Below are positions 36,675-64,000 of a stretch of DNA of 64,000 nucleotides, piece by piece. A program made the translations under genes and the position numbers. A model generated the notes under the pieces. It was given only the letters and a program-made list of their open reading frames with translations, had not been told where the DNA came from and made no database searches. Each line of letters begins with the position of its first letter. The stretch's first letter is position 1. The DNA is from a candidate division LCP-89 bacterium B3_LCP. Its GTDB lineage: Bacteria > Electryoneota > B3-LCP. Location: positions 117,993-181,992 of the forward strand of contig NJBN01000008.1 in the NCBI GenBank assembly GCA_005223185.1. The letters are read 5' to 3'.

Positions 36675-36756
36675 CTTTTTAGCTTCCTTATTTGCTTTAT
36701 TTTTTGAATTGTGGAGTTTAAATCTGTTGACGATCCCCGGCTATATTACGTGCAGT

Positions 36757-38034: not shown

Positions 38035-38145
38035 ATTACCAGCCTTTTTATCCGTCACACATAGTCCACTAACCAGAGTCATCAGGTCGAAGCGCAGGTA
38101 TTCTGGACAGTTTATCCTTAAGGTTACTTAAGGAACATTTTTTGA

Positions 38146-39396
38146 TTAGCCCCAGGTTTTTACTACACGGTAAAAGTATTTATCATTCGACGTCAGTATG
38201 CCTGCATCGATATAACTATTCTCATTTAAAGTAGCTATTTCATCATAAGTCCCGAATTCCGGATCGATGCTGCGTTGTACTTTATAAACGCCGGAGTATT
38301 CAGGAGTTGACCAGTCTAAGGTAACGTCCGGGTAGTTTTTTGTCACCTGTAAGTTGCGCACCTTGGTTGAAGGATCTTCTACAACTATTTGTTCGATGCT
38401 GCTTAGATTTGCAACGCCTAAGCTGTATGGCGGGTTTGCAGCAGTGTCAACATGCGTTGCTCTGTAAATGGTGGAACAACCTGCGTCGTCCAGAATGTCC
38501 CTGCCCACAGCATCGATGGCAACGCGGTCTTCGCCCATTATTATTCCTTCATAAACCATATTGGGAGAACCGCCTGGACCACCAGAATAACAGCCGAATA
38601 CGGCGTCAATAATGTGCAGGGTTTCCTCTACGGCTAAAACGTCGCGTATCTGTTGATTGAGAGCGGGAATGTAAGGATCACAGTAACCCGGGTGTAAAGA
38701 GCCTGGACTTTGAATGGACCCCAGATGGTTTTTCATGGCCAGGGTTATGCCGGCAGTACTATGGTTTTTCAAAACGGCGAAATCAATTAAATAATTGCAG
38801 TAGTCAGTAAGGATGTTGGACGGATGCTGATAGGAACCGGCGCAGTTTAGGTACAGGCTATTGTATCCCACCGAATTGGTTCCCATGCAGCGTACCCCGG
38901 TTGCTCCTGAATTTAGTGTATAACCAGAATTGGACAGTTCCCATGAAGAACGATCCCAGATAATGACGTTATTTTCCGGGAATGGTGAACCTCCGACGTC
39001 CATCTGGGTAAGTCCATTTATCAGGGCGTTTACCATTTCCGGATGAGTGGGCAGCGAACTATTGATACAGTTGACCTTGATACCTATGACGTCATCTGTG
39101 GTAATGTTCGGAAATATCGCGTGATAAGCCTCGCCGATGTTGTTTATCTCCGTATAGCGGCGGATGGCTTCATCCATCATCACCTGGACAATGGATTGAT
39201 CTAATTGCGATCCCTGGTGAGAAGCCACATCCTTGATGGTAACCACGCGGGGATCACGCCATAAGTCAGTAGCTTCCGATTTCCGGCTCAGAATGTGGAA
39301 CGCTCCCGTAGGGATACTAAAAGCAGCAGCAGCGCCGGTAGCCGTTTTGATGAAAGTACGCCTGTTTATCCCCTTAGACTCTCGCCCCTTCTTCAT
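38146..39396 (-). CDS. Tat-exported DUF362 protein with C-terminal Fn3-like domain (paralog)
   Basis: 416 residues. Tat motif INRRTFIKTATGAAAAFSI. Same domain order and wording as the downstream paralog: VVTIKDVASHQGSQLDQSI, IGIKVNCINSSLPTHPEMV, VIIWDRSSWELSNSGYTLN, LAMKNHLGSIQSPGSLH, FGCYSGGPGGSPNMVYEGI, and a C-terminal LDWSTPEYSGVYKVQRSID with YFYRVVKTWG. First gene of the six-gene minus-strand group. The mature protein is periplasmic; no cofactor motif is evident. Role unknown, but the repeated SxxxHPG(Y/N)CDPYIPALN stretch (about 245-262 in both) looks like an active or binding site. Confidence 0.82.
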   Translation of the reverse strand: MKKGRESKGINRRTFIKTATGAAAAFSIPTGAFHILSRKSEATDLWRDPRVVTIKDVASHQGSQLDQSIVQVMMDEAIRRYTEINNIGEAYHAIFPNITTDDVIGIKVNCINSSLPTHPEMVNALINGLTQMDVGGSPFPENNVIIWDRSSWELSNSGYTLNSGATGVRCMGTNSVGYNSLYLNCAGSYQHPSNILTDYCNYLIDFAVLKNHSTAGITLAMKNHLGSIQSPGSLHPGYCDPYIPALNQQIRDVLAVEETLHIIDAVFGCYSGGPGGSPNMVYEGIIMGEDRVAIDAVGRDILDDAGCSTIYRATHVDTAANPPYSLGVANLSSIEQIVVEDPSTKVRNLQVTKNYPDVTLDWSTPEYSGVYKVQRSIDPEFGTYDEIATLNENSYIDAGILTSNDKYFYRVVKTWG

Positions 39397-43249: not shown

Positions 43250-43263
43250 CAACAGTATTGTTG
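43250..43263. promoter_or_regulatory. possible MarR operator
   Basis: Inverted repeat CAACA-GTAT-TGTTG just downstream of the promoter and next to the marR start, a usual place for autoregulation. Proposed from position and symmetry only. Confidence 0.35.
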
Positions 43264-43266
43264 AAT

Positions 43267-43713
43267 ATGAATGATCGGGCTTTTCAGTTTTATGAACTTC
43301 TGAAGGATATAACGTCCTGCTGCCAGGAACGCGAAATCCTGCAGGCTGCAAAATACAATCTGACAATATCTGAGGCGAGATGTCTCATATCTCTTGAATT
43401 GAATGCATGCAAGACCACAGCGGATTTAGCCGATAATATGCTTGTTGCTAAAAGCCGGGTAACGAGAGTGGTGGACGGTCTGGTAAAAAAAGGATTAGTG
43501 GGACGTTGTGAAGATAAGGATGACAGGAGAATTTGTCAGGTTTCTTTGACTAACGAAGGCAACCGGATTGCGGTTGATCTTTTCGGATTTATCCTTTCAT
43601 TGCATGAGGAAGTTTTAGGTAAGCTGCCTGATGATTTAAGAGACGATACCATAACCAATCTTTCCCTGCTCAGAGATGCTATGCATCATGTGAAGGATCG
43701 GCTGATAGCTTAA
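43267..43713 (+). CDS. MarR-family transcriptional regulator
   Basis: 148 residues from ATG 43267 (a TTG at 43258 is an alternative; no clear Shine-Dalgarno for either). Winged-helix MarR features: LTISEARCLISLELNACKTT, ADLADNMLVAKSRVTRVVDG (recognition helix), LVKKGLVGRCEDKDDRRICQ (wing with the DxRxx motif). It is the first gene of the plus-strand polysulfide/thiosulfate operon, with a near-consensus promoter and a palindrome at its start, so it probably represses its own operon until a sulfur or redox ligand is sensed. Several Cys (about 15, 16, 40, 48, 79, 86) could sense redox or reactive sulfur; this is conjecture. Confidence 0.88.
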   Translation: MNDRAFQFYELLKDITSCCQEREILQAAKYNLTISEARCLISLELNACKTTADLADNMLVAKSRVTRVVDGLVKKGLVGRCEDKDDRRICQVSLTNEGNRIAVDLFGFILSLHEEVLGKLPDDLRDDTITNLSLLRDAMHHVKDRLIA

Positions 43714-43729
43714 TAAACAGATAACAAAC

Positions 43730-45928
43730 ATGACAAACGGAATAAACCGGCGACAATTTATAAGACTTGCGGGTTTCGGCGCCGCGGGCGCAGGATTGGC
43801 CTATAGCGGCTTGAATCCCTGGGGATTATCGGCGCATGCAGATCTGACACACACTGGATCAGGCGTCAGAGAGATTCCAACTTTCTGCGAACTATGTTTC
43901 TGGAAGTGCGGCGTAATAGCCAAAGTCAAAGATGGTCGTATCATCAAGCTTGAAGGTCATCCAGGTCACCCTCTGTCAAACGGAAGGTTATGTCCCCGCG
44001 GTAACGGCGGCACGGGCTTAACATATGATAAGGATCGTCTCAGGCAACCACTGATACGCGCTAAGAAGCGTGGTGAAGACGTCTTCCGGGAAGTCACCTG
44101 GGATGATGCTTTGGATCATATAGCCGAAAAGATGATCTACATCCGCGATGAATGGAGTGCAGACTGCTTTGCGCTCTTCAACCATGGATATGGCGCAACA
44201 TTCATCAAACATCTCATCAAGGCTTATGGATCACACAGTATCGCGGCTCCATCATACGCTCAGTGCCGGGGACCGCGGGAAGTCGGTTTTGATCTAACTT
44301 TCGGTGAAGAGGTGTTGTCTCCTGAACGAACGGACATCGTCAATACGCGTATGTTAGTGCTGATAGGTAGTCATTTAGGCGAGAACATGCACAATACTCA
44401 GGTGCAGGAATTCGCCGATGCCATCTCTAACGGCGCCAAGTTAGTGGTTGTCGATCCCCGCCATTCGGTCGCTGCCGGTAAAGCTGATTGGTATCTTCCC
44501 ATAAAACCCGCTACAGATATAGCTCTGCTGTTAGCCTGGATGAACGTCATTATAAATGAAGATCTCTACGATAAAGAATACGTCGATAAATACACTGTGG
44601 GGTTTGAACAGTTGGTTCAACATGTCAAGTCCTACTCACCTGAAAAAGTCTGGACGATAACTGGCATAAAACCCGAACTGATCAGGCGCACCGCACGTGA
44701 GATGGGGCATCAGAAGCCCGCAGTGCTGATCCACCCCGGCAGGCATGTAACCTGGTATGGCGATGATACCCAGCGTTCACGCGCCATAGCGATTTTAAAT
44801 GCGCTTTTAGGCAGTTGGGGCAGGAAAGGTGGTTTCTTCTATCCCGGAGAATTGGACGTGCCCAAACCGGAAACGCCGCCTTATCCAAAACCTTCCTTCG
44901 ATCGCGTCGATCTGCAGATTAAGAACTACCCGCTGGCTTATAATACTTTGGCTTCAGGATTGTGTGACGCCACTTTCCCCGCCCCGCAGACCAATTGCCA
45001 GTTGAAAGCGTGGTTTGTTTATGGAACCAACCTGGTGCACAGCCTCCCCAAACCTCAGCAGACCATGGAAGCTATGCAGCATTTGAAATTCCTCGTGGTA
45101 TCAGACGTCCTGCCCATGGAGATAGTGGGCTGGGCGGATGTTGTCCTTCCGGATGCTACTTATTTAGAACGTTACGACGATCTGCATGTGGGACGTTTCC
45201 GCGAACCCTTCGTGGCTTTACGGCAGCCGGTCATCGAACCCATGTATGACACTCGCCCCCCTTGGTGGGTTGCCAAAGAACTGGCGAAGAGGCTGAACTT
45301 AGATTCCTATTTCCCCTGGGATAACATCGAACAATATCTCGATAACCGGTTAGCCACAGTTGGATTGAAACTTTCCGATCTCAAGCGCGATGGTGTAAAG
45401 GTATTCCCCCGTCAACCGCTGTACTTCGAAGACGGGATTCAGCCGGAATTCTTCACCAATTCGGGAAAGATCGAACTCTATTCCAGCAGTTTGGCTGCTC
45501 ATGGATATGATCCTATTCCCGTTTATACCGAACATGGTGAACCGCCGCAAGGTTACTACCGGCTGCTCTTTGGGCGCGCTCCGGTTCACACTTTTGGCCG
45601 TACAACCAACAATCCCGTGCTGAATCGTGTGATAGATTCCAATGAAGTCTGGGTCAATCGCCGCGTTGCCGAAGAGTGGAGCCTAGAGAATGGGGGAGAC
45701 GTGATTTTAAAAAATCAGGATGGTGTGGAATCATCACCTGTGCGCATCAAAGTAACCGAGAGAATTCGAAGCGATTGCGTGTATATGGTTCACGGTTTCG
45801 GGCATAAAGCTAAGCGTCTGACCAACAAGAAGGGCGCCAATGATAGCGATTTGATCACTCGGTACAACACCGATCCCATTATGGGTGGCACGGGGATGAA
45901 CGTCAATTTCGTTACTTTTGTTACTTAA
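43730..45928 (+). CDS. psrA: molybdopterin oxidoreductase, PsrA/PhsA type (polysulfide or thiosulfate reductase)
   Basis: 732 residues. Tat signal INRRQFIRLAGFGAAGAG. [4Fe-4S] ligands Cys53, Cys56, Cys60, Cys88 in CELCFWKC and LCPRGN; then molybdopterin domains and a molybdenum-ligating Cys179 in YAQCRGPRE, the place used by polysulfide/thiosulfate reductases. Further motifs: IGSHLGENMH, VVDPRHS, RHVTWYGDDTQRSRAIAI, SDVLPMEIVGWADVVLPDAT and the C-terminal MVHGFGHKAKR. It catalyses S-S bond reduction with electrons from quinol, or the reverse. The B and C subunits follow directly, 15 and 7 bases apart. Thiosulfate versus polysulfide cannot be told from sequence. Confidence 0.88.
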   Translation: MTNGINRRQFIRLAGFGAAGAGLAYSGLNPWGLSAHADLTHTGSGVREIPTFCELCFWKCGVIAKVKDGRIIKLEGHPGHPLSNGRLCPRGNGGTGLTYDKDRLRQPLIRAKKRGEDVFREVTWDDALDHIAEKMIYIRDEWSADCFALFNHGYGATFIKHLIKAYGSHSIAAPSYAQCRGPREVGFDLTFGEEVLSPERTDIVNTRMLVLIGSHLGENMHNTQVQEFADAISNGAKLVVVDPRHSVAAGKADWYLPIKPATDIALLLAWMNVIINEDLYDKEYVDKYTVGFEQLVQHVKSYSPEKVWTITGIKPELIRRTAREMGHQKPAVLIHPGRHVTWYGDDTQRSRAIAILNALLGSWGRKGGFFYPGELDVPKPETPPYPKPSFDRVDLQIKNYPLAYNTLASGLCDATFPAPQTNCQLKAWFVYGTNLVHSLPKPQQTMEAMQHLKFLVVSDVLPMEIVGWADVVLPDATYLERYDDLHVGRFREPFVALRQPVIEPMYDTRPPWWVAKELAKRLNLDSYFPWDNIEQYLDNRLATVGLKLSDLKRDGVKVFPRQPLYFEDGIQPEFFTNSGKIELYSSSLAAHGYDPIPVYTEHGEPPQGYYRLLFGRAPVHTFGRTTNNPVLNRVIDSNEVWVNRRVAEEWSLENGGDVILKNQDGVESSPVRIKVTERIRSDCVYMVHGFGHKAKRLTNKKGANDSDLITRYNTDPIMGGTGMNVNFVTFVT

Positions 45929-45943
45929 ATACTGAGGATACCA

Positions 45944-46483
45944 GTGGCAAGATACGGTATGGTAATAGATACGCACCGCTGTGTGGGATGTCATTCATGT
46001 GTGATTTCCTGCTTCATGGAAAACAGCGTTCCTGAAGGCTACAAGCGAGATTGGATTGTGGAAGTTGTCTCGGGCGAATTTCCCAACTTCAGGAGCGAGA
46101 TTCGTTCCGAACGGTGCAACCACTGTGATAATCCTCCATGTGTGTTCGTTTGCCCTTGCGGCGCTTCTTATGTTGAAGAGGGAACCGGTACTGTTCTGGT
46201 CCACAACGAAAAGTGCACCGGCTGTAAAGCTTGCATTGCTGCCTGTCCTTATGATGCCCGTTTCATCAATCCCGCTGGTTTCGCTGATAAATGCACTTTC
46301 TGTGATCATCGCGTCAAGGATGGGTTGCTGCCCGGCTGTGCTACCACCTGCCCCACCAAAGCGATCAATTTCGGTGACCTGGATCAACCCGGCAGCCATC
46401 TGCATAAATTGATGCATGACCGTTCGGTGAAATCACTTAAACCTTCTGCCGGCACCGGTCCCAACGTCTATTACCTGCTGTGA
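45944..46483 (+). CDS. psrB: four-cluster ferredoxin subunit, PsrB/PhsB type
   Basis: 179 residues, electron-transfer subunit with four [4Fe-4S] binding sets: CVGCHSCVISC (about 12-22), CNHCDNPPCVFVCPCG (about 58-73), CTGCKACIAACPYDA (about 92-106) and CTFCDHRVKDG with CATTCPTKAI. It carries electrons between the membrane quinol site of the C subunit and the molybdenum subunit. GTG or alternative start near 45944; the N-terminus MARYGMVIDTHRCVGC fits the family. No Tat signal; it would ride with PsrA. Confidence 0.9.
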   Translation: MARYGMVIDTHRCVGCHSCVISCFMENSVPEGYKRDWIVEVVSGEFPNFRSEIRSERCNHCDNPPCVFVCPCGASYVEEGTGTVLVHNEKCTGCKACIAACPYDARFINPAGFADKCTFCDHRVKDGLLPGCATTCPTKAINFGDLDQPGSHLHKLMHDRSVKSLKPSAGTGPNVYYLL

Positions 46484-46490
46484 GGCAACT

Positions 46491-47462
46491 ATGATTGAAG
46501 TTACCAATTATAGAGATAATCCACTGATCGATCCCCATCTGGAAATCTGGGAATGGCAGATATCCGTCTATCTGTTCTTAGGCGGTCTAGTGGCAGGACT
46601 GATGATTTTAAACGGTCTCTGGCGAATCCGGGATCGTGAACATGAGACAAAGGCTATTACCAATTCAGCAGTGTTATGGGCTCCGGTTCTGATTTCACTT
46701 GGTATGTTCTGTTTATGGTTAGATTTAGTCAATAAGCTAAACGTATACCGTTTCTACATGACCTTTCAAATTAAATCACCCATGTCGTGGGGATCATGGA
46801 TTTTATTTCTAGTCTATCCCGCCCAAATTTTAGCCGTCGCGGTTGCCAAAGGATCTGATGTGTTTGGAGGCGTTCTCAAGGGTCTGAATCCGTTGCTACA
46901 GATCTTAAAGAGTATAACCAACGGACGGGAGAAGCAGATCGCCTGGCTGAACGTTGTGCTGGGGGTTATGCTGGGAATTTATACGGGAATATTATTATCT
47001 GCCACTGCAGCCAGACCCTTGTGGAATACCGCATTGCTGGGACCTCTGTTTTTAGTAAGTGGTCTTTCCACAGCCACTGCCTGGAATATGTTATCCAGAC
47101 CTACTAAAATCGAACATTCATCTCTGGCGAAATGGGATTTTTCGCTGATTATTACAGAAATGTTTCTCCTGCTCCTCATCTTGATTGGTTTCTTAAGCGG
47201 GACTGAAGGACATCAATCAGCGGGTATGTTGCTACTTGGCGGTGGTTTTACCGCTGTTTTTTGGATCTTCGTGATCATTTTAGGGCTTTTGTTCCCATTG
47301 TGGTTAGAACTACGGGAGATGCGGGGGCATTCTACACCTGCCTGGGTTGCACCTGCATTAGTGCTTTTAGGCGGATTAGCGCTGCGTTTTGTGATGGTAC
47401 AGGCAGGTCAGGTCAGTCACCTTCCGGATACAGAACTACTATTTGGCGCTGTTGGGCACTGA
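46491..47462 (+). CDS. psrC: NrfD/PsrC-family membrane quinol-binding subunit
   Basis: 323 residues, about eight membrane helices. N-terminus IEVTNYRDNPLIDPHLEIWEW, then YLFLGGLVAGLMILNGLWR typical of NrfD/PsrC. It anchors the A and B subunits and exchanges quinones. A Glu-rich helix-flank (TEMFLLLLILIGFLSG, about 222-237) contains the family's quinone-site acidic residue. Starts 7 bases after psrB. Confidence 0.88.
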   Translation: MIEVTNYRDNPLIDPHLEIWEWQISVYLFLGGLVAGLMILNGLWRIRDREHETKAITNSAVLWAPVLISLGMFCLWLDLVNKLNVYRFYMTFQIKSPMSWGSWILFLVYPAQILAVAVAKGSDVFGGVLKGLNPLLQILKSITNGREKQIAWLNVVLGVMLGIYTGILLSATAARPLWNTALLGPLFLVSGLSTATAWNMLSRPTKIEHSSLAKWDFSLIITEMFLLLLILIGFLSGTEGHQSAGMLLLGGGFTAVFWIFVIILGLLFPLWLELREMRGHSTPAWVAPALVLLGGLALRFVMVQAGQVSHLPDTELLFGAVGH

Positions 47463-47513
47463 CCCATTACTTACAACAGGAGCATAATAAACTTTAGAAT
47501 ATAAAGGAACATC

Positions 47514-48035
47514 ATGTCGAACGAAAAACCAAAACCCTACTGGTCGCCTTACATGGCAGGTCTGGGATTGGGATTGGTTCTGCTCCTTGCATTTGTCATC
47601 ATGGGGCAGGGACTGGGGTCTTCCGGGGCGTTTGCCCGACTGGAATATACGCTGCTTCACACAGTGGTTCCAGAACACATCGAATCCAATCCATACATGG
47701 CGCACTACTTTGAAGATGGCGCCAATCCGTTGTCAAATTACCTGGTTTTCCTGGTTGTTGGAGTTTTAGCGGGTGGTTTCATCAGTGGTATCACGGCGAA
47801 CCGGTTTAAAAAGAGCGTCGATAAGGGACCCCGTATTTCGGTCAAAGCGCGATTCTTCCTGGCTTTCTTCGGGGGTTCCTTGATGGGATTTGGAGCGCGA
47901 CTGGCGAGGGGTTGTACGTCAGGTCAGGCTCTATCAGGCGGAGCCACTCTGGCTTTAGGAAGCTGGGCGTTCATGATGATGTTCTTCGCAGGTGGTTTTC
48001 TGGGAGCGTACTTTTTAAGGAGGCAATGGCTATGA
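47514..48035 (+). CDS. YeeE/YedE (thiosulfate transporter-like), N-terminal half protein
   Basis: 173 residues with about four membrane helices. Contains ARLARGCTSGQALSGGATLA (about 136-155), the conserved cysteine motif of the YeeE/YedE (TsuA) sulfur-transport family, in which Cys residues line the thiosulfate path. Many homologs are a single protein of about 350 residues with two such halves; here each half is its own gene. The next gene overlaps by four bases (ATGA). Its place after psrABC suggests it imports thiosulfate or another sulfur compound for, or releases a product of, the reductase. Confidence 0.87.
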   Translation: MSNEKPKPYWSPYMAGLGLGLVLLLAFVIMGQGLGSSGAFARLEYTLLHTVVPEHIESNPYMAHYFEDGANPLSNYLVFLVVGVLAGGFISGITANRFKKSVDKGPRISVKARFFLAFFGGSLMGFGARLARGCTSGQALSGGATLALGSWAFMMMFFAGGFLGAYFLRRQWL

Positions 48036-48631
48036 ATTTCCCCATAGAATCGACAGGCGCATTCTCATTTAGCACAGGGATGCTGATGACATTTCTGATC
48101 GGTGTAGGGTTCGGGTTCTTTCTGGAAAAGGGTGGTTTTTCCAGCGCCAGAAAGCTGACCGCCCAGTTCTACCTGCGCGACTTTGCCGTCCTGAAAGTGA
48201 TGTTCACAGCCGTCGTCGTTGCTGGAATCGGATTCTGGGGGCTGGTGCATCTGGGCATGCTCGATCTGGAATTCACCTTCATCAATCTGACTTACATCTG
48301 GCCTCAAATTGTCGGGGGCTTGATTTTAGGCATAGGTTTCATCGTCGGAGGATATTGTCCGGGAACCGCCTGCGTGGCGGCTACCACCGGAAAGCTTGAT
48401 GCTTTATGGTGCATCGCTGGCATATTCTTCGGAATATTCGTGTTCAGCGAGCTTCAACCTGCATTGAAGGCTTTCCAGAATTCAGGCGAGATGGGCGAAG
48501 TGTTCGTCTGGCAGTGGTTGGGAGTATCACCCGGTATAGTCCTTCTTGGCGCTGTTCTTATGGCAATCGGAGCATTTTCGCTGGGCACTATAGTTGAAAA
48601 CAAGAAGGGATCGGTCGTTCAGCCGGACTAA
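48032..48631 (+). CDS. YeeE/YedE (thiosulfate transporter-like), C-terminal half protein
   Basis: 199 residues, about five membrane helices. Contains the second cysteine motif GGYCPGTACVAATTGKLDAL (about 107-126) of the YeeE/YedE family. Start: ATG at 48032 with AAGGAGG 8 bases upstream, overlapping the stop of the first half by four bases; the in-frame ATG at 48026 is too close to the ribosome site. The two halves probably assemble into one transporter. Residue count and motif order match the C-terminal part of TsuA. Confidence 0.87.
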   Translation: MNFPIESTGAFSFSTGMLMTFLIGVGFGFFLEKGGFSSARKLTAQFYLRDFAVLKVMFTAVVVAGIGFWGLVHLGMLDLEFTFINLTYIWPQIVGGLILGIGFIVGGYCPGTACVAATTGKLDALWCIAGIFFGIFVFSELQPALKAFQNSGEMGEVFVWQWLGVSPGIVLLGAVLMAIGAFSLGTIVENKKGSVVQPD

Positions 48632-48737
48632 CTGAATTCCGCATTGACTGGACTTCTCAAAGGTTATGCAATCCGCGGAAATCCGTGATTCAGACAATTT
48701 CTTACCACCTTAATCTGTATAAGCTATCGAGATAACA

Positions 48738-49373
48738 ATGGACACAAAAATAATAAACAGAATAAGCGCCGCCGTCCTTCTAGTCGCCGCTATCATCCTG
48801 GTGTTGATGGGAAATCCGTCCAGGGTGATCCTTCTGAAAGCATCGGATGACTTAGGCGCCATCGCCATGTACGGCGAGGATATGATCGATCCGTTAGTAT
48901 TGATCGACTGGATCATCGGCGAAACGGGTGATTTTATCGTAGTGGATCTACGCAACCCGTCAGATTATACCGACTTCAGCATCAACGGATCGGTGAACAT
49001 CCCCTTCGCTTCGCTGTTCACCAGTGAAGGTTTCGATCAAGTCCCCACACACCTTAAAACGGTACTGGTCTGCGAAGATGGAACTCGCTCCGGGCAAGCC
49101 TGGTCTGTGCTCAGGATACAGGGATATGAAGCTTATATCTTAAAAGGTGGGATAAAAGGTTGGTGGCGCAAGATTATGACGCCGCTTTCAGCTAAAGAGT
49201 TGCTTTTAGCGGACCTTGATCCTGCGGAATTGTCTGCGAAGCTGAAAGCTGCCAGAGAACACCTTGTGGGAGGGGGCGCCATCATGGATACACCTTCCGA
49301 AAAAAACGGCACACCACCACCGCCACAGATAAAATCCAAACCTAAGAAGAAAAAGAAGAGTGGTGGGTGTTAA
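48738..49373 (+). CDS. membrane-anchored rhodanese with Lys-rich, Cys-ending tail
   Basis: 211 residues: one N-terminal membrane helix (about 9-25), a rhodanese domain (about 45-150) with active loop VCEDGTRSGQAW (Cys112, Arg117; Cys intact), and a C-terminal region with PPPPQIKSKPKKKKKSGGC. It moves sulfane sulfur as a persulfide. Last plus-strand gene of the sulfur cluster, about 105 bases after the YedE half. The Lys tail ending in Gly-Gly-Cys is unusual: a terminal cysteine could carry or pass sulfur, or attach the protein to a partner. The domain is on the periplasmic side if the helix is an uncleaved signal anchor. Confidence 0.83.
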   Translation: MDTKIINRISAAVLLVAAIILVLMGNPSRVILLKASDDLGAIAMYGEDMIDPLVLIDWIIGETGDFIVVDLRNPSDYTDFSINGSVNIPFASLFTSEGFDQVPTHLKTVLVCEDGTRSGQAWSVLRIQGYEAYILKGGIKGWWRKIMTPLSAKELLLADLDPAELSAKLKAAREHLVGGGAIMDTPSEKNGTPPPPQIKSKPKKKKKSGGC

Positions 49374-51038: not shown

Positions 51039-51836
51039 ATGGAACGGTTGAACATCTCACTTGAAGACGTTAAAGTTGTTTACGACGGTCCCGAAGGCGT
51101 ACTCTGGGAACTCATCATGGGTGAACAGATACACGTCGGTGGATTCAAGTCATCGATGGAATTGGTTCAGAAAGCGGGCATCCAGCAAGGCTGGAAGGGC
51201 TTGGATCTATGCAGCGCCTTGGGCGCAGGCTGCCGCTTTTTAGTCAAAAACTGCGGCGTTACCATGTGCGGCTTGGATGGCACTCAGACCATGCACCAGA
51301 AGGCTCAGGAACGCTCCCAGGCGGAAGGATTAGCCGACAAGATCGAGTTACGCCTGGGTGATGTGACGGAAATCCCCTGGCCCGACAACACCTTCGATTT
51401 CGTCTGGGGCGAAGACGCCTGGTGTTATGTGGTTGATAAGGATAAGTTAGTATCCGAAGCCGCCAGAGTACTAAAACCCGGCGGTACTTTAGCCTTCACC
51501 GACTGGATTGAAGGACCGGCAGGTCTTTCGGATGATGAAGCCAAGCGCATAAATACCTTCATGAAGTTCCCTTACATGGAAAATCTCGAAGGCTACAAGA
51601 CTCTAATTCAGAATACCGGTTTAACGCTGGTCTCAGCAGAAGACTTGACCCCTGAATACGCATCTTACGTGGATTTTTACATTAAAATGCTCACCGACCA
51701 GCTCTCCTACGATGCCCTGAAGATTATCGGAGATGACATGGAACTGTTCCAGGCTATGGGCGGTGAAATGGCTTTCATGGGGCAGAAAGCTCATGAAGGC
51801 AAAATGGGTCGCGGTAGATTCATTGCAAGGAAATAA
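51039..51836 (+). CDS. SAM-dependent methyltransferase (UbiE/glycine-sarcosine methyltransferase-like)
   Basis: 265 residues, class I SAM fold. Motif I GLDLCSALGAGCRFL (about 54-68), motif II GLDGTQ, post-motif GDVTEIPWPDNTFDFVWGED (about 109-128) and RVLKPGGTLAFTDWIEGP. The wording WPD..FD.VW.EDAW is like sarcosine/dimethylglycine and related small-molecule methyltransferases. First gene of the operon, GGAGG upstream. It may methylate the substrate or product of the corrinoid pathway; the direction and substrate are not known. Confidence 0.82.
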   Translation: MERLNISLEDVKVVYDGPEGVLWELIMGEQIHVGGFKSSMELVQKAGIQQGWKGLDLCSALGAGCRFLVKNCGVTMCGLDGTQTMHQKAQERSQAEGLADKIELRLGDVTEIPWPDNTFDFVWGEDAWCYVVDKDKLVSEAARVLKPGGTLAFTDWIEGPAGLSDDEAKRINTFMKFPYMENLEGYKTLIQNTGLTLVSAEDLTPEYASYVDFYIKMLTDQLSYDALKIIGDDMELFQAMGGEMAFMGQKAHEGKMGRGRFIARK

Positions 51837-51842
51837 CCGATT

Positions 51843-52259
51843 ATGATGGAAATACTTACAGGGGGAGGGTGGTTAAAACCCTCCCTCTTAGCCCTGTTCT
51901 TCTGGGGTCTGTGGGGTTTCTTAACCAAGTTAGGAGCCGAAAAAGTCCCCTGGCAGACCATGATGATCTTCTTCGCAGTTTGTACGCTGGCAGGAGGACT
52001 CGCCACAGGACCTGTTAAAATGAAGATGGACGTTTGGCATCTAATCGGTTTAGGTGCAGGAATAGCTGGAGCGCTGGGATTTATCTACTTCTTTCTGGCT
52101 ATCTCCCGAGGTGAAGCTTCGGTTGTCATTCCGATCACCTCACTTTATGTGGCGGTGGCGTCTGTACTGGCGTTCATCATCCTATCGGAACCGATTACGC
52201 TGAAGAAAATGCTGGGTATTTTATGCGCGGTAATTGCTGTGGTGTTGTTGGCAGGGTGA
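51843..52259 (+). CDS. half-size EamA/DMT-superfamily transporter
   Basis: 138 residues, about five hydrophobic helices, i.e. one EamA repeat rather than the usual two (about 300 residues). Motifs: LLALFFWGLWGFLTKLGAE, GALGFIYFFLAISRGEAS and VVIPITSLYVAVASVLAFII, with the LSEPIT..K..GI end typical of EamA repeats. Probably works as a homodimer. Six bases after the methyltransferase stop; may import the methylated substrate or export the product. Confidence 0.83.
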   Translation: MMEILTGGGWLKPSLLALFFWGLWGFLTKLGAEKVPWQTMMIFFAVCTLAGGLATGPVKMKMDVWHLIGLGAGIAGALGFIYFFLAISRGEASVVIPITSLYVAVASVLAFIILSEPITLKKMLGILCAVIAVVLLAG

Positions 52260-52309
52260 TATAATATCTTATTAGCATCTTATAAATGTGAAATCAGGAA
52301 TTATGAGTA

Positions 52310-52948
52310 ATGCATGAACTATACAAACAGATAGCCGATGCCGTCGTCGCCATGCAGAAAGACGATGTCAAACGGCTGGCAGAACAGGCGCTAAACGAAG
52401 GATTGCCGCCCGAAGAAGCTATCGAAAAAGGTCTGGCAGCAGGAATGACCCGGGTCGGCGAACTGTTCGCCAGCAAGGAATATTTCGTGCCCGAATTATT
52501 GGTATGCTCACGGGCTATGAACGCTGGTTTCGATATTCTAAAAAGCAAGGTCGTTGAGGGTAAAATCATCAGTAAAGGGACCGTCGTCATCGGCGTTGTG
52601 GACGGAGACTACCACGACATCGGCAAGAACATCGTAAAACTTATGCTGGAAGCAGCCGGGTTCCGCCTTGTCGATCTGGGGAGAAACGTTACAGCCCAAA
52701 AATTTACTTCAGCCGTTATAACGGAGAAGCCAGACATTGCTGCCCTGTCCACCCTGATGACCACCACTATGGACAGCATGGCGGATATTGTGTTAGCTTT
52801 ACAGCGGGAGAACTCAGACGTTAAAATCATGGTCGGCGGAGCACCCGTTAATGAAGATTTCGCCAAATCCATAGATGCGCACTTTTACGGGGACAACGCT
52901 AGGGAAGCAGTTATAGGCGCCCATGAACTACTCGGCATCACCATCTAA
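52310..52948 (+). CDS. corrinoid-binding methyltransferase protein (MtbC/MttC-like)
   Basis: 212 residues. N-terminal four-helix cap (about 1-85) and C-terminal B12-binding Rossmann domain (about 88-212) with Asp100-x-His102-x-x-Gly105 (GDYHDIGKNIV), whose His ligates cobalt, then LSTLMTTTMDSM and the GGAP glycine loop. It carries a methyl group on Co(III)/Co(I) between two methyltransferases. The UroD-like gene overlaps its end by 26 bases. Confidence 0.9.
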   Translation: MHELYKQIADAVVAMQKDDVKRLAEQALNEGLPPEEAIEKGLAAGMTRVGELFASKEYFVPELLVCSRAMNAGFDILKSKVVEGKIISKGTVVIGVVDGDYHDIGKNIVKLMLEAAGFRLVDLGRNVTAQKFTSAVITEKPDIAALSTLMTTTMDSMADIVLALQRENSDVKIMVGGAPVNEDFAKSIDAHFYGDNAREAVIGAHELLGITI

Positions 52949-53909
52949 AAGAGAGACCTTTGACCGCCTGTTCCCCCTTCTTAAGGGAGCCACGTCGGCA
53001 GCAGCACCGATGATCGCCGCGGATCACTTAGCGCATATCCTGAAATTACCTCTGATCGAGGTATGCCGCAATGGAAAGCTATTAGCCGAGGGATTTCTCA
53101 AAGCGCGCCAACTGTATGATTCGGATTTTATAATTGTCTTTGCGGACGTTTCGGTGGAATCAGAAGCTATGGGAATCAAACTCGAATATTTCCACAATCG
53201 GAATCCGCAACCGGTAAAACATCTCGCATGGAATGAGCTTGAACAAGTGGATATGGTGTCCAGGGGAAGGCTGCCCCAACTACTGCGCGCAGCCGAAATC
53301 TGCAGAGAGGAATCGGACGCAGGTTTTCCTATCTTCTTCTCCATGAAGGACCCATTCAGTTTGGCGGCTATGGCGCTGGGTACGGAAACGTTTCTGGAAA
53401 AGCTGCTTTTAGATCCTGATCGGATTACCGAGGCGCTGGAAATCTGCTGCAGCAACCAACAGCAATTGATCGCTGCTGTTATTTCTGAGGGTTTTATCCC
53501 CTTTGTGGGAGCTCCCATTGCTTCCGGTGGATTAATCGGCGCGGAGAACTTCAGACGTTTTGCTCTACCATATTTGGAAAGACTCTTTACCGAAGTGGAC
53601 CGAAAAAAATCCTTCCGCTGTCTGCACGTCTGTGGAGAAATCGGAATGCTGACGACAGAATTGGCGGATCTGAAATTGCACCTGCTGAGTTTTGAGGATT
53701 GGCACCCGGAGATGTGGAATCATCTGGCGAACACCATCCCCATGGGATTTGTACCCACGAATCTATTTCGTGCAGGTTCCGCTGAAACCGTTCGCGAGGC
53801 GACTTTGTCATGCCGACGCATCCTTCCTGAACCGTACGTACTTTCCACTGGATGCGATCTACCGGCAAACGCCAAACCGGAATTGGTTCAAGCAATGATG
53901 AACTGTTGA
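52923..53909 (+). CDS. UroD-family (MtaA-like) corrinoid methyltransferase 1
   Basis: 328 residues, uroporphyrinogen-decarboxylase fold. The zinc set of MtaA/MtbA-type methyltransferases is present: His235-x-Cys237 in LHVCGE and Cys311 in STGCDLP. Such enzymes move a methyl group between the corrinoid protein and a thiol or other acceptor (or demethylate the primary substrate, as in VdmB-type proteins). A true UroD is excluded: there is no RQAGRYLPEY N-terminal motif. It begins inside the corrinoid gene and is followed one base later by an Fe-S protein gene. Confidence 0.85.
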   Translation: MNYSASPSKRETFDRLFPLLKGATSAAAPMIAADHLAHILKLPLIEVCRNGKLLAEGFLKARQLYDSDFIIVFADVSVESEAMGIKLEYFHNRNPQPVKHLAWNELEQVDMVSRGRLPQLLRAAEICREESDAGFPIFFSMKDPFSLAAMALGTETFLEKLLLDPDRITEALEICCSNQQQLIAAVISEGFIPFVGAPIASGGLIGAENFRRFALPYLERLFTEVDRKKSFRCLHVCGEIGMLTTELADLKLHLLSFEDWHPEMWNHLANTIPMGFVPTNLFRAGSAETVREATLSCRRILPEPYVLSTGCDLPANAKPELVQAMMNC

Positions 53910-53910
53910 T

Positions 53911-54969
53911 ATGGATGTCATCACCGGATTTGATAGGCTCGAAAAACACTACCTGGCATCGGAATCGAGACCAAAGGTGGGCTATCTCTGTTTACGGGTT
54001 TCACCCGAATATATTGAAGCGTGTGGCGCTGACGCTTTGCGCATCGCCCCCCGACCCGGATACGACCTTTCAGCCTTCACGCCCATCCGTCCCGATGGCT
54101 GTTCCTTCTGCCGTTCGGTTCCTGCTATCCTCGAAACTGATGTCTATAGAAATCTAAATGCTATCATTGCCGGAACCTGCTGCGACCAGATGCGGCGCCT
54201 GATGGATACCCTGAACGACTTATTGGATATACCGGTAATTCTCTTCGGAGCGCCCCGCACCTGGAATGCCGATCCGGATTATTTCCGGGGAGAGATGATT
54301 GATGCCTTTGGCAAGATAGAAGAAATAACCGGTAATGCAGCGACCGAAACCGAACTATTGGAGCGCATCCGGGTTCATAACAACCTGAAAAACAGTGTCA
54401 ATCATCTGCGCAGGCAGGAAAAGCTTCCCACTGCGCTTCTGCAAAGAATCTCCTGCTCTATCCTGCCGCCAGAAGAAATTCTGTCCTTTTTAAGTAATTC
54501 CCGAGACTTGCCAGCCATACCAGCAGAAATTCGGCTGTTGTTAGCTGGCAGCATTCCGGGCGTTTGGGAACTTGACGTCATCGAAAGCAACGGGTCCCGC
54601 GTCGTCGCCGATGCCACCTGCCTCGGGGATCGTGTCTTCCATCGTCTGACTTCAGAGAAAGGCGATCCGGTACAGCAATTATATCAGACCTACGTGGAAG
54701 ATAATCTCTGTCCGCACCGGCGTCCGGTAACGTCGACTATAGACTACTTGAAGAACTTGATGGACGAACGACAGATCGATGGCGTGGTTTACCGCTCCGT
54801 AAAATATTGCCATCCCTGGGGGCTCCTGGCAGAACGGATGAAGAAAGAGTTGGAAGCGCCTCTGCTGATCGTCGATGACGATCTGACTTCTCCCGCCGTA
54901 GAAAATTTCCGCACCCGCGTAGGAGCTTTCACAGAAATGCTGAAGATGAAGTTGAGGCGGCGCGCATGA
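53911..54969 (+). CDS. HgdB/BcrC-type 2-hydroxyacyl-CoA-dehydratase-like protein, short subunit
   Basis: 352 residues. The domain is the one shared by 2-hydroxyacyl-CoA dehydratases, benzoyl-CoA reductases and double-cubane cluster proteins: GCSFCRS (about 68-74), IAGTCCDQMRRL (about 87-98), and near the end YRSVKYCHPWGLL with LLIVDDDLTSPAVENFRTR and AFTEML. These Cys motifs ligate a [4Fe-4S] or double-cubane cluster. It overlaps the next, longer homolog by four bases, so the two most likely form a heterodimer. With no CoA-ester gene nearby, the substrate is more likely the corrinoid protein or a small molecule. Confidence 0.8.
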   Translation: MDVITGFDRLEKHYLASESRPKVGYLCLRVSPEYIEACGADALRIAPRPGYDLSAFTPIRPDGCSFCRSVPAILETDVYRNLNAIIAGTCCDQMRRLMDTLNDLLDIPVILFGAPRTWNADPDYFRGEMIDAFGKIEEITGNAATETELLERIRVHNNLKNSVNHLRRQEKLPTALLQRISCSILPPEEILSFLSNSRDLPAIPAEIRLLLAGSIPGVWELDVIESNGSRVVADATCLGDRVFHRLTSEKGDPVQQLYQTYVEDNLCPHRRPVTSTIDYLKNLMDERQIDGVVYRSVKYCHPWGLLAERMKKELEAPLLIVDDDLTSPAVENFRTRVGAFTEMLKMKLRRRA

Positions 54970-56348
54970 CCGAACCGCGCCAGATAGATTTCCGCCAATG
55001 GCACCGTTTGTTCCAGCAGGTTCCGGATAGGTTGGTAGAAGAGATCCGCTACTACCGGCATCTACCCCAGGCAGAATGGTCTCAATATCTCTTTCCACCG
55101 TCAACCCACGTCGTTTACGGTAACCGACTTCTGCGCAAACTGAAATTCGACAATTCACAGGCAGCGCTGCGGTTATGGGGTTTCGTCATGTCTGAAGGGG
55201 AACGGATTTACCGTGCTCGCCAAGCAGGGATGAAGGTTATCGCCGTCATGGGAGATCTGGGTGCGGTTACTCCGCTGGTCTATTCCTTTCCCAATATTGT
55301 TGCATTCTACCCCGACTGCCTCTGGTGGACGCCTTTCCTGATGGAGAGCCGCGAACTGTTTGATGAAGCCGGACAGTTGGGTTTGGGTGAAGATTGCTGC
55401 TTCGTCAGAGCTTCTTTAGGAGCTTTTTCCCGCAAAGCCTACTTCCCCAAACCGGATCTCTGCGTGGGGACGGTCGGTGCTACCTGCGATGACATGGCAA
55501 CGGTCATGAGTGAAGCTGAGCAATTGGGCGTCGATATTCACTACTTCGAACTTCCTCACCGCCATGATGGGGATACCGACAAGACTGCTTTGTCTGGCTA
55601 CCTGGAAAATCAGTATCAGGAGTTGTGCCGAAGACTCGAACAAGCGACAGGAGAGACCTTTTCGCCTGACCGGTTCAGAGAGACTGTCCAAAAGGTCAAC
55701 CGAATGCGGTCTCTTATCGCCGAAATTAAAGATTTATCAGGCGCGCCCGCTGCCAGTCCCATGGGCGCGGTTGAAATGATGAACATGGAGTTCGCCGCTC
55801 TTTCCTATTACGGCGATCTAGACGAGTGTCTGGCTGTCCTGACAGAATTTCGAGACCTCATGAAGTTTCGGGCGAACAGCGGACAGGGATATCAGAATCA
55901 GGATCTTCGGCTGGTCTGGGTAACGCCTCCCGCAGACCCGCTGTTGATGAACTATATCGAGGAGTTGGGAGGACGGGTTGTCGGATCCGAATATTTGATC
56001 CATCAGACCACGCCGATTATAGATACTAAGAAAGATCCTTTCGAAGCATTGGCAGAAGCCCACCTGAAGGCGACTCTCATGGGTTCGTCCGCTTATAGAG
56101 TTAATCTGGTTATTGAACAGGTGGAACGAACCCACGCCGATGGCGTGATCATATCAGGCGTTTTCGGGTCTTCTCATTGCCCCTATGAAACTGCGCCCAT
56201 CATCTCTGCTCTGCGCCAGAAGGGCATCCCGGTGCTCTCCTTCGACGTCGTGGCCCCGGGGAAGCGGCGCCTGCAATCGCAGATCTTCAACCGGATGGAA
56301 GCGTTCTCAGAATCGCTAAAAGCCAGGAAGAAACGCCGTGCCGGGTAA
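54966..56348 (+). CDS. HgdB/BcrB-type 2-hydroxyacyl-CoA-dehydratase-like protein, long subunit
   Basis: 460 residues, same family as the preceding gene but longer by an N-terminal region. Cys in YPDCLWW, EDCCFVRASLGAF, PDLCVGTVGATCDDM and SSHCPYE (about residues 119, 139-140, 161-169 and 398) fit the cluster ligand pattern, including the CD pair (CDDM). The C-terminus is basic. It follows by a 4-base overlap and is followed by a second UroD-type gene with an 11-base overlap. Together with the ASKHA activase two genes on, it should form an ATP-driven low-potential reductase. Its exact target is inferred. Confidence 0.8.
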   Translation: MTEPRQIDFRQWHRLFQQVPDRLVEEIRYYRHLPQAEWSQYLFPPSTHVVYGNRLLRKLKFDNSQAALRLWGFVMSEGERIYRARQAGMKVIAVMGDLGAVTPLVYSFPNIVAFYPDCLWWTPFLMESRELFDEAGQLGLGEDCCFVRASLGAFSRKAYFPKPDLCVGTVGATCDDMATVMSEAEQLGVDIHYFELPHRHDGDTDKTALSGYLENQYQELCRRLEQATGETFSPDRFRETVQKVNRMRSLIAEIKDLSGAPAASPMGAVEMMNMEFAALSYYGDLDECLAVLTEFRDLMKFRANSGQGYQNQDLRLVWVTPPADPLLMNYIEELGGRVVGSEYLIHQTTPIIDTKKDPFEALAEAHLKATLMGSSAYRVNLVIEQVERTHADGVIISGVFGSSHCPYETAPIISALRQKGIPVLSFDVVAPGKRRLQSQIFNRMEAFSESLKARKKRRAG

Positions 56349-57375
56349 GATGAATCCTAGAGAACGCTGGTCGCTGCTGCTGATCGACGAGCTGCCCGAC
56401 CGCCCGCCGGTCTATCCGTTGGTGACCTGTCACGCAGCGCGAGTTTACAACTGTGATCTGATAGAATATTGCACGGACGGGCGGATTTTAGCAGAAGCAC
56501 AACTTGAGGCGCAGCGCCTTTATGGACATGAGGGGCTGTCGGTCTTTACCGATGTTGGTATCATCGCCGAAGCAATGGGCAGCAAGTATCACCTGAGGGA
56601 ATTCGAGGTTCCCATATTGGATAGCCCTCTTATCACCGATACAGCTATGATAGGTGAACTGGGACCACCCGATCCAACCACTCAGGGGCGGCTTCCGGTA
56701 TATTTGGAGGCAATAGACCGCATGTACAGTGCTGCGGGGGACGTCCTGCCGATCTTCGCTTTCATCCCCTGTCCGTTCACCACGGCGGCGGGTCTGCGCG
56801 GCGTTGACAATTTTCTGATGGATACTGTTTTAGAGCCTCAAGCAGCACATGATCTGCTGGACGTTTCCCTGAAAAGCGCCATTACATTCTGCGATGAGTG
56901 CATTTTAGCTGGCGCTCTGCCGATGCTGGTCGATCCGTTAGCTTCAGGCAGCGTAATTTCTCGAACGACCTACAGCCACTTTGCCAAAAGCTACCAGCAG
57001 AAGTTGATAGCACACTTACACCGCTACGATCTGGACGTTACTCTGCACATCTGTGGGGATACGTCAAACATGCTGGATCTCATCCCTCAAACCGGAGCTG
57101 ATCTCTTCAGCTTCGACCTGGCTGATGTTGATTCAGCCACCGACGCTATGGGAGATCGGGTGAGGTTGGTGGGAAACCTGCCACCGCACGGACTTTTACC
57201 ATCCAGCAACTTGTCCGTGACCCAGGGAACCAATTCCATCATGGAAATGGGCCTAAAGAATCCCAAAGGATTTGTGCTCTCCACCGGCTGCGAAGTACCT
57301 ATTCGCTGCGAAGCACAGAAACTGCACACACTGATAAATATAGGAAAAAATGCCAGGTATGAAGAAGTCTGGTGA
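56338..57375 (+). CDS. UroD-family (MtaA-like) corrinoid methyltransferase 2
   Basis: 345 residues. Zinc ligands His237-x-Cys239 in LHICGD and Cys318 in STGCEVP, as in gene 1 of this family (52923). N-terminal MNPRERWSLLLIDELPDRPP and the family phrase DPLASGSVISRTTYSHF. Sequence identity to the first copy is low, so the two are likely the two halves of a methyl relay (substrate-to-corrinoid and corrinoid-to-acceptor) rather than a recent duplication. Overlaps the preceding gene by 11 and the activase by up to 26 bases. Confidence 0.85.
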   Translation: MPGKMNPRERWSLLLIDELPDRPPVYPLVTCHAARVYNCDLIEYCTDGRILAEAQLEAQRLYGHEGLSVFTDVGIIAEAMGSKYHLREFEVPILDSPLITDTAMIGELGPPDPTTQGRLPVYLEAIDRMYSAAGDVLPIFAFIPCPFTTAAGLRGVDNFLMDTVLEPQAAHDLLDVSLKSAITFCDECILAGALPMLVDPLASGSVISRTTYSHFAKSYQQKLIAHLHRYDLDVTLHICGDTSNMLDLIPQTGADLFSFDLADVDSATDAMGDRVRLVGNLPPHGLLPSSNLSVTQGTNSIMEMGLKNPKGFVLSTGCEVPIRCEAQKLHTLINIGKNARYEEVW

Positions 57376-58144
57376 CATGACGGTTGGCATAGACATCGGG
57401 TCCCGCACTACTAAGGCTCTTGTCTGGAATGGGGAAGAGGTCTTAAGCCGAAGTATGCTAAGCACGGGCTGGACGCCGGAAAAGAGCGCTTCTGTGGCAT
57501 TCGAAAAAACGCTTCAAACTGCAGCGATAAGCCCGAGTGAGGTGAAGAGAACCATGGTTACCGGTTACGGGCGCGGTAGTATCTCCTTTGCCGATGAAAG
57601 CGTCACCGAAATCACTGCTCATGCGCGAGGGGTTAGCTATCTCCTACCGGAAACGAAAACACTGATTGACATCGGTGGTCAGGATTCCAAGGCGATCATC
57701 ATAGATGATGAAGCCCTGGTGCAGGACTTTGCCATGAACGACCGCTGTGCTGCTGGTAGTGGGAAGTTCCTGGAATTTCTGGCATTGACTATGGAGTTAT
57801 CAGTGCAGGATTTCTCAGAATTGGCATTCTCATCGAAGAATCCAATGCAGATTTCATCCATCTGTACGGTTTTCGCCGAAAGTGAAGTGCTTTCCATGCT
57901 GGCGGAGGGCGTCGCCCGTGAGGACGTTGCCAGCGGAGTACACCGTTCTATTGCTCTGCGAGTAGCGCAGATGGCTCATTCTCTCCATCCACAGGTTCCG
58001 ATTGCCTTTTCAGGCGGCGTCGCCAGAAACCGCTGTATGATTCGTGAAATAGGTGTGGCTTTAGGCGGTGATATTTCAGTACCGGAAATGCCGGAATACG
58101 CCGGAGCACTGGGCGCAGCTATTATCGCACGAGAATCGCTGTAG
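57350..58144 (+). CDS. ASKHA-type activator ATPase (HgdC/BcrD-like)
   Basis: 264 residues. Motifs of the CoA-dehydratase/benzoyl-CoA-reductase activators: GIDIGSRTTKALVW (about 13-26), GYGRGSI, LIDIGGQDSKAI (phosphate 2), MNDRCAAGSGKFLE with Cys133, and SSICTVFAESEV with Cys172. The two Cys per monomer form the [4Fe-4S] bridge of the homodimer that injects electrons with ATP hydrolysis. Start uncertain: ATG 57350 has AGGA close upstream; ATG 57377 lies 2 bases after the previous stop. Last gene of the operon; ends with a stop at 58144. Confidence 0.88.
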   Translation: MPGMKKSGDMTVGIDIGSRTTKALVWNGEEVLSRSMLSTGWTPEKSASVAFEKTLQTAAISPSEVKRTMVTGYGRGSISFADESVTEITAHARGVSYLLPETKTLIDIGGQDSKAIIIDDEALVQDFAMNDRCAAGSGKFLEFLALTMELSVQDFSELAFSSKNPMQISSICTVFAESEVLSMLAEGVAREDVASGVHRSIALRVAQMAHSLHPQVPIAFSGGVARNRCMIREIGVALGGDISVPEMPEYAGALGAAIIARESL

Positions 58145-62760: not shown

Positions 62761-63117
62761 CGCCATCCTGCGCCCGCGGCTGACCACCGGCGCGGGCGCT
62801 CGGCCCTCTCGATCCCCAACCCGGCATGTGAAACGCAGCCTAGTACTTGAAGTGCACCTGCACGTAGCCGAACTGCACGTCGGGTTCATTGGGAAAAGCC
62901 GTTTCGCGAACGTCGCCACCCCACAGGTAGGCGTAGCCACCCTGCAGCGCGACGTGCTTGTGCAGCTTCCAGTCCACGACAATATCGATTTCGTCGCCGA
63001 CGTCCTTGTTGAATCCATGAGTTGCTGCGGGAATCGCACCGTAGCCGAAGGCGCCCGGCTTGTTGCCCTGCTTCGAGAACGCGCCCGTGCCGAAGTACTG
63101 ACCATCATCGTCGTTGA

Positions 63118-63287
63118 GCAGCCGGAAGTGGTGGTACATGAGGTTGAGACCCTCCTTTTCGTGCAGCTTGAGCTTGAGCTGCACGATCACGTCCTGATGG
63201 ACGTGATCGTGCAGCCGGAAGTGGTGGTACATGAGGTTGAGACCCACCTTTTCGTGCAGCTTGAGCTTGAGCTGCACGATCACGTCC
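63118..63287. repeat. 93-bp-period duplication inside the porin frame
   Basis: A 77-base block (63118-63194) is repeated at 63211-63287 with one mismatch, period 93 bases (31 codons, in frame). The connecting 16 bases complete a perfect palindrome (63179-63214). Confidence 0.85.
63179..63214. repeat. perfect 16-bp palindrome at the duplication joint
   Basis: CTGCACGATCACGTCC, loop TGAT, GGACGTGATCGTGCAG. One arm is the end of the first repeat copy, the other bridges to the second. Confidence 0.9.
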
Positions 63288-63568
63288 ATCAGGTTCTGGA
63301 ACGCCAACTGGTCGGCGAAGCCGTAGTACAGGTGGTTCGTGGGCATCAGGTTGAAGAAGGTATTGTGATCCTCGGTCGGGTCACCTCCCGAGGCCACGTT
63401 GATGCCCGCGCGCAGCCACGGCTTGGCGACCACATCGGGCAGCATGTAGCCCGCCTCGAAGATGCCGGCGCCGGCGGCGTGGTCGCGTCCATTTCGGGCG
63501 GTGTCGGCGGCGTCTTTTCCAGTTTGGTGATGGCGTGGAAGCCGATCGGGTCGGCTTCCGCCGGCCGA

Positions 63569-64000
63569 AAGCCGCGCCCCTTGCGGGTTCACACGGGTGT
63601 TGAAGGCGGCGCTCGTCATGGGGTCGTCGGCCTCGCAGCCGAAGTAGAAGCTGCTCGCGAAGAGCTCGCGGATGTCGTCTGCTGACTCGATCTCGCACGC
63701 TACCCACTCGTCGAGTGTGGTGGGGTCCTCGCTGTCCGTCAGGATGTGGATCTCATCGTAGATGGGTGTTTCGAGACGCTTGCGCAGCACTTCGGAGCCG
63801 TACTTCGCGTACAGCTTCTCGAAGAGCCCGCGGTCGAGCAGCGTCGGATCGTAGTTCTCGAGTGCCTTCCGGTTGCGCTTCTCCCAATGTCCGATGATGT
63901 CTGCGTAGAGTTGGCACGCCCAGGCGACCCCGCCCTCCAGGAAGGCGAACTTGAGCTCGGGAAAGCGCCGCGTGACTCCGCCCAGGAAGAGCGAGCGGCA
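63569..64000 (-). CDS. amidohydrolase (family 2) fragment, 5' end outside window
   Basis: About 144 residues open from the window edge. Family-typical text: FAFLEGGVAWACQLYADIIG, HWEKRN, GLFEKLY.KYG, FASSFYFGCEADDPM and AFNTRVNPQGARL. In complete enzymes NPQGARL is followed by a GSD(I/L)GHWDVPDM segment holding the metal Asp; here the frame goes into unrelated and then porin sequence. Cytoplasmic TIM-barrel hydrolase/decarboxylase family; truncated by the fusion. High-GC tail. Confidence 0.7.

Follow-up and report, generated by a model that had tools for sequence, protein, structure and literature searches.

Gene clusters of the mlp type (Kountz and Balskus, PMC10418091) are the nearest known kind to the operon described here. 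They encode two or more MtaA-like UroD proteins whose zinc is bound by His-Cys-Cys, a coordination sphere which marks S/Se-methyltransferases, together with one corrinoid protein and the corrinoid reactivase RACE, and no tetrahydrofolate methyltransferase is found nearby. In some type 1 clusters, the corrinoid methyltransferases and RACE are paired with a double-cubane cluster protein (DCCP) and a DCCP reductase (PMC10418091). The SdmABC system for dimethylselenide demethylation in Methanococcus likewise comprises a corrinoid protein and two methyltransferases annotated as uroporphyrinogen decarboxylases (PMC11097638). The operon under study lies at positions 51039-58144 (+) of a 64,000-nucleotide stretch (the window) of contig NJBN01000008.1 from candidate division LCP-89 bacterium B3_LCP, and its eight genes are designated A to H. 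It shares the listed features with the mlp clusters, RACE being present in its sister operons. In contrast to these clusters, it has a two-subunit, BzdNO-like reductase instead of the single-subunit DCCP, a fixed gene order A-B-C-D-RACE-E-F-G-H, an additional S-adenosylmethionine (SAM)-dependent methyltransferase and EamA transporter, and, in the window genome, a displaced RACE gene. From SdmABC, described as a three-component system, it differs by the double-cubane reductase and the activase (PMC11097638). An earlier note, made from the sequence alone, had described this combination, which is not unprecedented in view of the mlp clusters with DCCP and its reductase; our literature search revealed no paper on the combination with a two-subunit reductase.

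On balance, the operon, conserved among uncultured anaerobic bacteria, probably serves S- or Se-methyl transfer via a RACE-activated corrinoid protein, together with an ATP-driven reductase that would act on the substrate or the product, a reading that draws on sequence features and on analogy to the mlp clusters.

Metal sites of the methyltransferases and the reductase

The eight open reading frames (ORFs) lie on the same strand; neighboring frames are separated by 6, 50 and 1 bases or overlap by 26, 4, 11 and 26 bases. Their tight coupling, as proposed in the earlier note, was confirmed, and Pfam and NCBIfam agree with its family calls for all eight proteins. Protein C (52310..52948, +) is a corrinoid methyl-carrier protein with the Pfam domains B12-binding_2 and B12-binding (1y80, 2e-43) and the DxHxxG motif in the form GDYHDIGKN; it matched the pyl_corrinoid subfamily with an E value of 2e-55 and 187 bits, below the cut-off of 215. 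D (52923..53909, +; URO-D, 1e-42) and G (56338..57375, +; URO-D, 2e-61) are the UroD-superfamily corrinoid methyltransferases 1 and 2. The zinc site of D reads His235-x-Cys237 followed by TGC, with H235 and C237 invariant in eight sequences, and that of G consists of His237-x-Cys239 and Cys318, all invariant in ten. The His-x-Cys pair and the distal cysteine are kept across orthologs, including those of candidate division WOR-3, wherever the reads span them. Families and ligands thus support the assignment to corrinoid methyl transfer.

Gene E (53911..54969, +; HGD-D in Pfam and NCBIfam) encodes the double-cubane subunit. Ten orthologs, the most distant with 20-24% identity, retain all of its six cysteines (27, 64, 91, 237, 267 and 300), except that the listed frame of L051 begins past C27. 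In a profile alignment these cysteines coincide with the double-cubane ligands Cys36/73/100/263/293/327 of BzdN at nearly the same spacing (37/27/146/30/33 in E, 37/27/163/30/34 in BzdN), and an AlphaFold2 model (pLDDT 89) gave Z scores of 37.1 against DCCP and 36.2 against BzdN. E is therefore predicted to carry the ligand set of an [8Fe-9S] double cubane in the BzdN register. F (54966..56348, +; HGD-D in Pfam and NCBIfam) is the presumed catalytic [4Fe-4S] subunit: Cys145, Cys174 and Cys405 match Cys95/128/380 of BzdO, C405 by approximate register, and the distal-cubane cysteine set is absent. These three cysteines as well as Cys118, Trp120, Trp121 and Asp97 are invariant in 12 orthologs. 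In the model of F (pLDDT 77), residues ~63-453 adopt the same fold after an N-terminal extension of ~60 residues, with Z 31-36 to chains of benzoyl-CoA reductase (BCR), 2-hydroxyacyl-CoA dehydratase (HAD) and DCCP. H (57350..58144, +; BcrAD_BadFG/CoA_E_activ, 9e-76; 4eht, 4e-63) is an ASKHA ATP-dependent activase that retains the two cysteines for the cluster (NDRCAAGSG, SSICTVFAESEV). Cluster-ligating cysteines, on which the earlier assignment to an ATP-driven reductase of the double-cubane type depended, are hence found in both HgdB-like subunits and in the activase.

As judged from alignments and models, E and F follow the plan of BzdNO, the class I BCR (PMC11971306), with an electron-storing double cubane in E and an open [4Fe-4S] cluster in F. 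Like BzdNO, they would form a heterodimer of six-Cys double-cubane and three-Cys [4Fe-4S] subunits fed by an ASKHA ATPase, and the attributes of the BCR I/HAD family, an HGD-D fold, two-subunit or dimeric organization and an ASKHA activase, were all found. The operon differs from BzdNO in its single activase gene, BzdNO having two, and in the embedding of the reductase among methyl-transfer genes; benzoate genes were not found, nor, in agreement with the earlier note, was any gene of a CoA-ester pathway identified within the operon. The equivalent of BzdO Glu65 was not recovered in the F alignment. Moreover, F has no conserved equivalent of the catalytic His131 of BzdO (three residues after Cys128), the position being a variable Met177, and for this reason E and F were not filed as a benzoyl-CoA reductase. 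The system of DCCP and its reductase (6eno, 7yyl) is the one that E resembles most in both sequence and structure and F in sequence, and it includes a homolog of the activase; however, DCCP is a homodimer with a double cubane in each monomer, whereas the pair here is split and F holds the ligands of one cubane only.

Compared with the definition of a type 1 mlp cluster, which asks for at least two Mlps with >25% identity to the soluble coenzyme M methyltransferase, D and G are borderline, each with 27% identity to MtaA (4AY7) in local alignments over 222 and 259 residues, respectively. The cluster includes a corrinoid protein, C, and no tetrahydrofolate methylase lies within 20 kb, the downstream side being limited by the contig end at 5.9 kb. 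A Ram/RACE gene is part of seven sister operons, but not of the window operon. Type 1 clusters also encode members of the Mlp2 and Mlp3 clades. Since the window operon has no RACE and D and G are not placed in the Mlp1/2/3 clades, it was not filed as a type 1 cluster; by analogy, it would work like one.

The remaining genes encode A (51039..51836, +; Methyltransf_11, 1e-18; 2o57, 6e-25), a class I SAM-dependent methyltransferase whose nearest solved relatives are sarcosine/dimethylglycine and phosphoethanolamine N-methyltransferases, and B (51843..52259, +; EamA, 7e-14), a half-size EamA-type drug/metabolite transporter of 138 amino acids (aa). A promoter and terminator scan gave sites no more numerous than in shuffled sequences, and Rfam at gathering scores yielded one distant tRNA and nothing close to the operon.

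Conservation of the operon and location of RACE

Nine further genomes of the phylum encode relatives of F, with ~43-74% identity over aligned pieces. The order A-(B)-C-D-...-E-F-G-H was also read in G003, G004, G019 and G033, and G010 and G022 hold versions split across contigs. An F-alignment scan of 84,980 species genomes, which reaches only relatives keeping two short conserved motifs, so that more distant versions may exist, returned 11 loci in Cand. Tariuqbacter, Calditrichaeota, Zixibacteriota, unclassified metagenome-assembled genomes (MAGs) and two WOR-3 MAGs. The two WOR-3 loci, with ~40% identity to F, are arranged as C-D-RACE-E-F-G-H and A-C-D-RACE-E-F-G. The conserved gene order for which the earlier note had suggested a search does therefore exist. 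E (at least 228 bits), F and G are present in exactly the same 10 of the phylum's 39 genomes, a count inflated by kinship among these genomes, and D in nine of these ten. A fragment of D was also found at a contig edge in G016 (L095), where B, this partial D and the beginning of a RACE gene, but no C, represent a degenerate or truncated copy; E, F and G were not found in this genome. As the order recurs across independent genomes, among them members of a second phylum, and as E, F and G co-occur, the arrangement is not due to chance.

The seven parts B to H were searched genome-wide. Two genomes of the same family as the window genome, G002 and G005, have B-C-D, E, F and G-H at four separate loci on different contigs, and all parts are kept. 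This retention after scattering argues, on the level of sequence, for a joint function of B to H. B still adjoins C-D in these scattered versions, and A is not beside them. Directly upstream of B-C-D, both genomes encode a 332-aa protein resembling Gfo/Idh/MocA oxidoreductases by eye (L091:2640-3638, L093:10777-11775). As the tie of E and F to corrinoid S/Se-methyl transfer survives scattering, it points to specific substrates for assays. Among rejected candidates, the sole match in a search for plasmid-borne copies was weak and concerned a Rhizobium 2-hydroxyacyl-CoA dehydratase family gene, and the genes outside the phylum that matched G (E 1e-46 to 1e-61) have different surroundings, with neither E nor F among them.

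The earlier note had stated that RACE is missing here and proposed, as the first of two options, that the electron gun reactivates the corrinoid. The absence of RACE holds for the window, where D ends at 53909 and E starts at 53911 with no RACE gene between them, but not for the genome or the operon family. Seven sister operons (L047, L048, L050, L052, L044, L055 and L056) carry RACE after D and ahead of E; in L044 the contig stops just past RACE, and E is the first gene on a further contig from that genome. In L048 (2513-5065; L035), D and RACE are fused into one predicted 850-aa protein, a direct physical link of the methyltransferase with the corrinoid reactivase. In G010 (L042), RACE is located upstream of the operon in divergent orientation, and a 209-aa cysteine-rich protein, DUF2284-like by eye, is encoded between A and this RACE (L042:2120-2749). 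A family search located the RACE of the window genome on another contig (G000:C4, ~229 kb; L031:7960-9513). Its N-terminus bears the ferredoxin motif CGGKGQCGHC, and its ATPase domain is intact. In a tree it groups with the operon RACEs of the phylum in a clade with 100/99 support and is distinct from a longer RACE type that these genomes also encode; both WOR-3 RACEs form long branches outside this clade. A RACE ortholog, as required for a RACE-dependent corrinoid system, is hence encoded, and according to the sequence data the window genome keeps its RACE away from the operon and has not replaced it. A supposed selenocysteine in RACE was rejected, the TGA flagged by the search being a terminator in the reads. 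The invariable presence of RACE in homologous clusters, which the earlier note named as evidence that would count against its proposal, is nearly what we observed, with seven genes between D and E, one nearby and divergent, and the one here elsewhere. Because sister operons and the own genome encode RACE, the HgdB/BcrC-type pair and its activase are not a RACE substitute, which corrects the tempting view that an HgdC-type electron gun lets a genome do without RACE. Parts, order, co-occurrence, metal-ligand cysteines and the RACE ortholog can all be read directly from the genomes.

Proposed pathway and alternative roles of the reductase

The direction of methyl transfer and the electron path from H via E to F, as we infer them from these parts, would be as follows. 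One zinc UroD-type enzyme would move the methyl group from a methyl-thio or methyl-seleno compound onto the Co(I) form of corrinoid protein C, and the other would hand it on to a second thiol or selenol. Oxidized Co(II) would be re-reduced by RACE, whose gene is part of the operon in most relatives and lies on a different contig in the window genome. ATP hydrolysis by activase H would drive electrons into the double cubane of E, which would store them and supply the [4Fe-4S] site of F. F in turn would reduce a low-molecular-weight compound tied to the methyl transfer, a precursor or product that is probably an organosulfur or organoselenium species; the methylated or the demethylated compound may serve this role. 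A and B would be ancillary, in SAM-dependent methylation of the acceptor or substrate and in transport. A reductase acting on a methylated substrate was the second option of the earlier note, and such a role, though inferred, remains the best reading.

A second thiol or selenol is the likely methyl acceptor, as proposed for mlp clusters, because no pterin-binding methyltransferase is found on the contig of the operon, which ends 5.9 kb past it, and because acetyl-CoA synthase is not tied to the operon. The genome has only two pterin-binding methyltransferases (PF00809), on contigs C6 and C14. Of the 10 operon-bearing genomes, 4 lack acetyl-CoA synthase, so the Wood-Ljungdahl pathway is not the methyl sink as a rule, and a coupling to it was discarded.

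Several points weigh against this pathway. The putative S/Se substrate is deduced from zinc-site chemistry and analogy, and A and B are left unaccounted for. G002 and G015 hold parts of the operon, and in these MAGs (93% and 77% complete) only the RACE type of the corrinoid iron-sulfur protein was found; the RACE of G005 lies outside the operon clade. SelD exceeded the cut-off in 34 of the 39 genomes of the phylum, equally in those without the operon, and is neutral with regard to selenium; a trait present in nearly the whole phylum was rejected as a discriminator.

A role in selenium salvage, in which methyl-selenides are demethylated for selenide use and E, F and H reduce an oxidized selenium species or a diselenide, appears rather unlikely. 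SdmABC of methanococci (PMC11097638), the link of mlp clusters with DCCP and its reductase to methyl-Se/S metabolism (PMC10418091) and the wide occurrence of SelD are in line with such a role. However, SelD is no less frequent in genomes without the operon, no selenium gene was identified next to any of these operons, and the operon proteins of the window show no in-frame TGA.

It is also unlikely that E, F and H are a functional analog of methylthio-alkane reductase, which would cleave C-S or C-Se bonds to methanethiol or methylselenol, followed by corrinoid demethylation or methionine salvage. MarHDK homologs are located in or near non-selenium mlp clusters (PMC10418091) and catalyze the ATP-dependent reduction of methylthio-ethanol, ethyl methyl sulfide and dimethyl sulfide (PMC12552129), and the double-cubane reductase could occupy their slot here. 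The molybdopterin/NrfD (polysulfide-reductase-like), YeeE and rhodanese genes just upstream would suit this function, but they are not beside the operon in relatives read by eye. Furthermore, no sequence relation to nitrogenase-like proteins was found, and a thioether activity of two-subunit relatives is purely conjectural. In a variant that we consider quite improbable, a non-nitrogenase double-cubane enzyme would reductively cleave methyl-S or methyl-Se bonds, with methane or some other hydrocarbon as a possible product, and the corrinoid system of the same operon would handle the remaining methyl-thiol. If true, the reaction of methylthio-alkane reductase would be achieved in a second way, by an unrelated enzyme.

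Re-reduction of the corrinoid by E, F and H, at least in the window genome with its RACE outside the operon, is very unlikely. The abutment of D and E, the affiliation of H and RACE to the ASKHA ATPases and the failure to find an operon-type RACE in G002 and G015 speak in its favor. Yet the window genome retains an operon-type RACE with ferredoxin motif and ATPase domain intact, and the presence of RACE beside the E-F pair in seven sister operons indicates different jobs for the two. Least probable is a non-redox 2-hydroxyacyl-CoA dehydratase, to which the common Pfam family and the Z of 36 between the F model and HadC would point, as E carries the full set of double-cubane ligands while HAD has lost its [8Fe-9S] clusters (PMC11971306), and as the genome has another HGD-D pair (G000:C4, L032) with neighbors of the acyl-CoA type by eye. 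This second pair (G000:C4:150000-167000), accompanied by two activases beside genes of the beta-oxidation type as read by eye, is probably a CoA-dependent dehydratase or reductase.

Flanking DNA of the operon

Directly upstream, on the same strand, positions 43258-49373 encode a MarR regulator, a molybdopterin oxidoreductase with Fe4S4 and NrfD proteins (polysulfide/thiosulfate-reductase-like), two YeeE half-transporters and a rhodanese, a sulfur-metabolism island adjoining the operon. A MoaA gene starts 118 bases past the operon end and more likely goes with the following molybdopterin oxidoreductase-like gene than with the operon. At ~59.3 kb the guanine-plus-cytosine content rises from ~50% to 62-67%, and the segment 59314-64000, the end of contig C9, is possibly a chimeric contig end or foreign DNA. 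Its ORF 62840-64000 (-) contains an internal repeat (VQLKLKLHEK...) and, as judged by eye, seems to combine an amidohydrolase-like start with an end resembling a porin. Farther upstream, at 33505-39396 (-), three DUF362 proteins with apparent leaders of the twin-arginine translocation (Tat) type are encoded close together.

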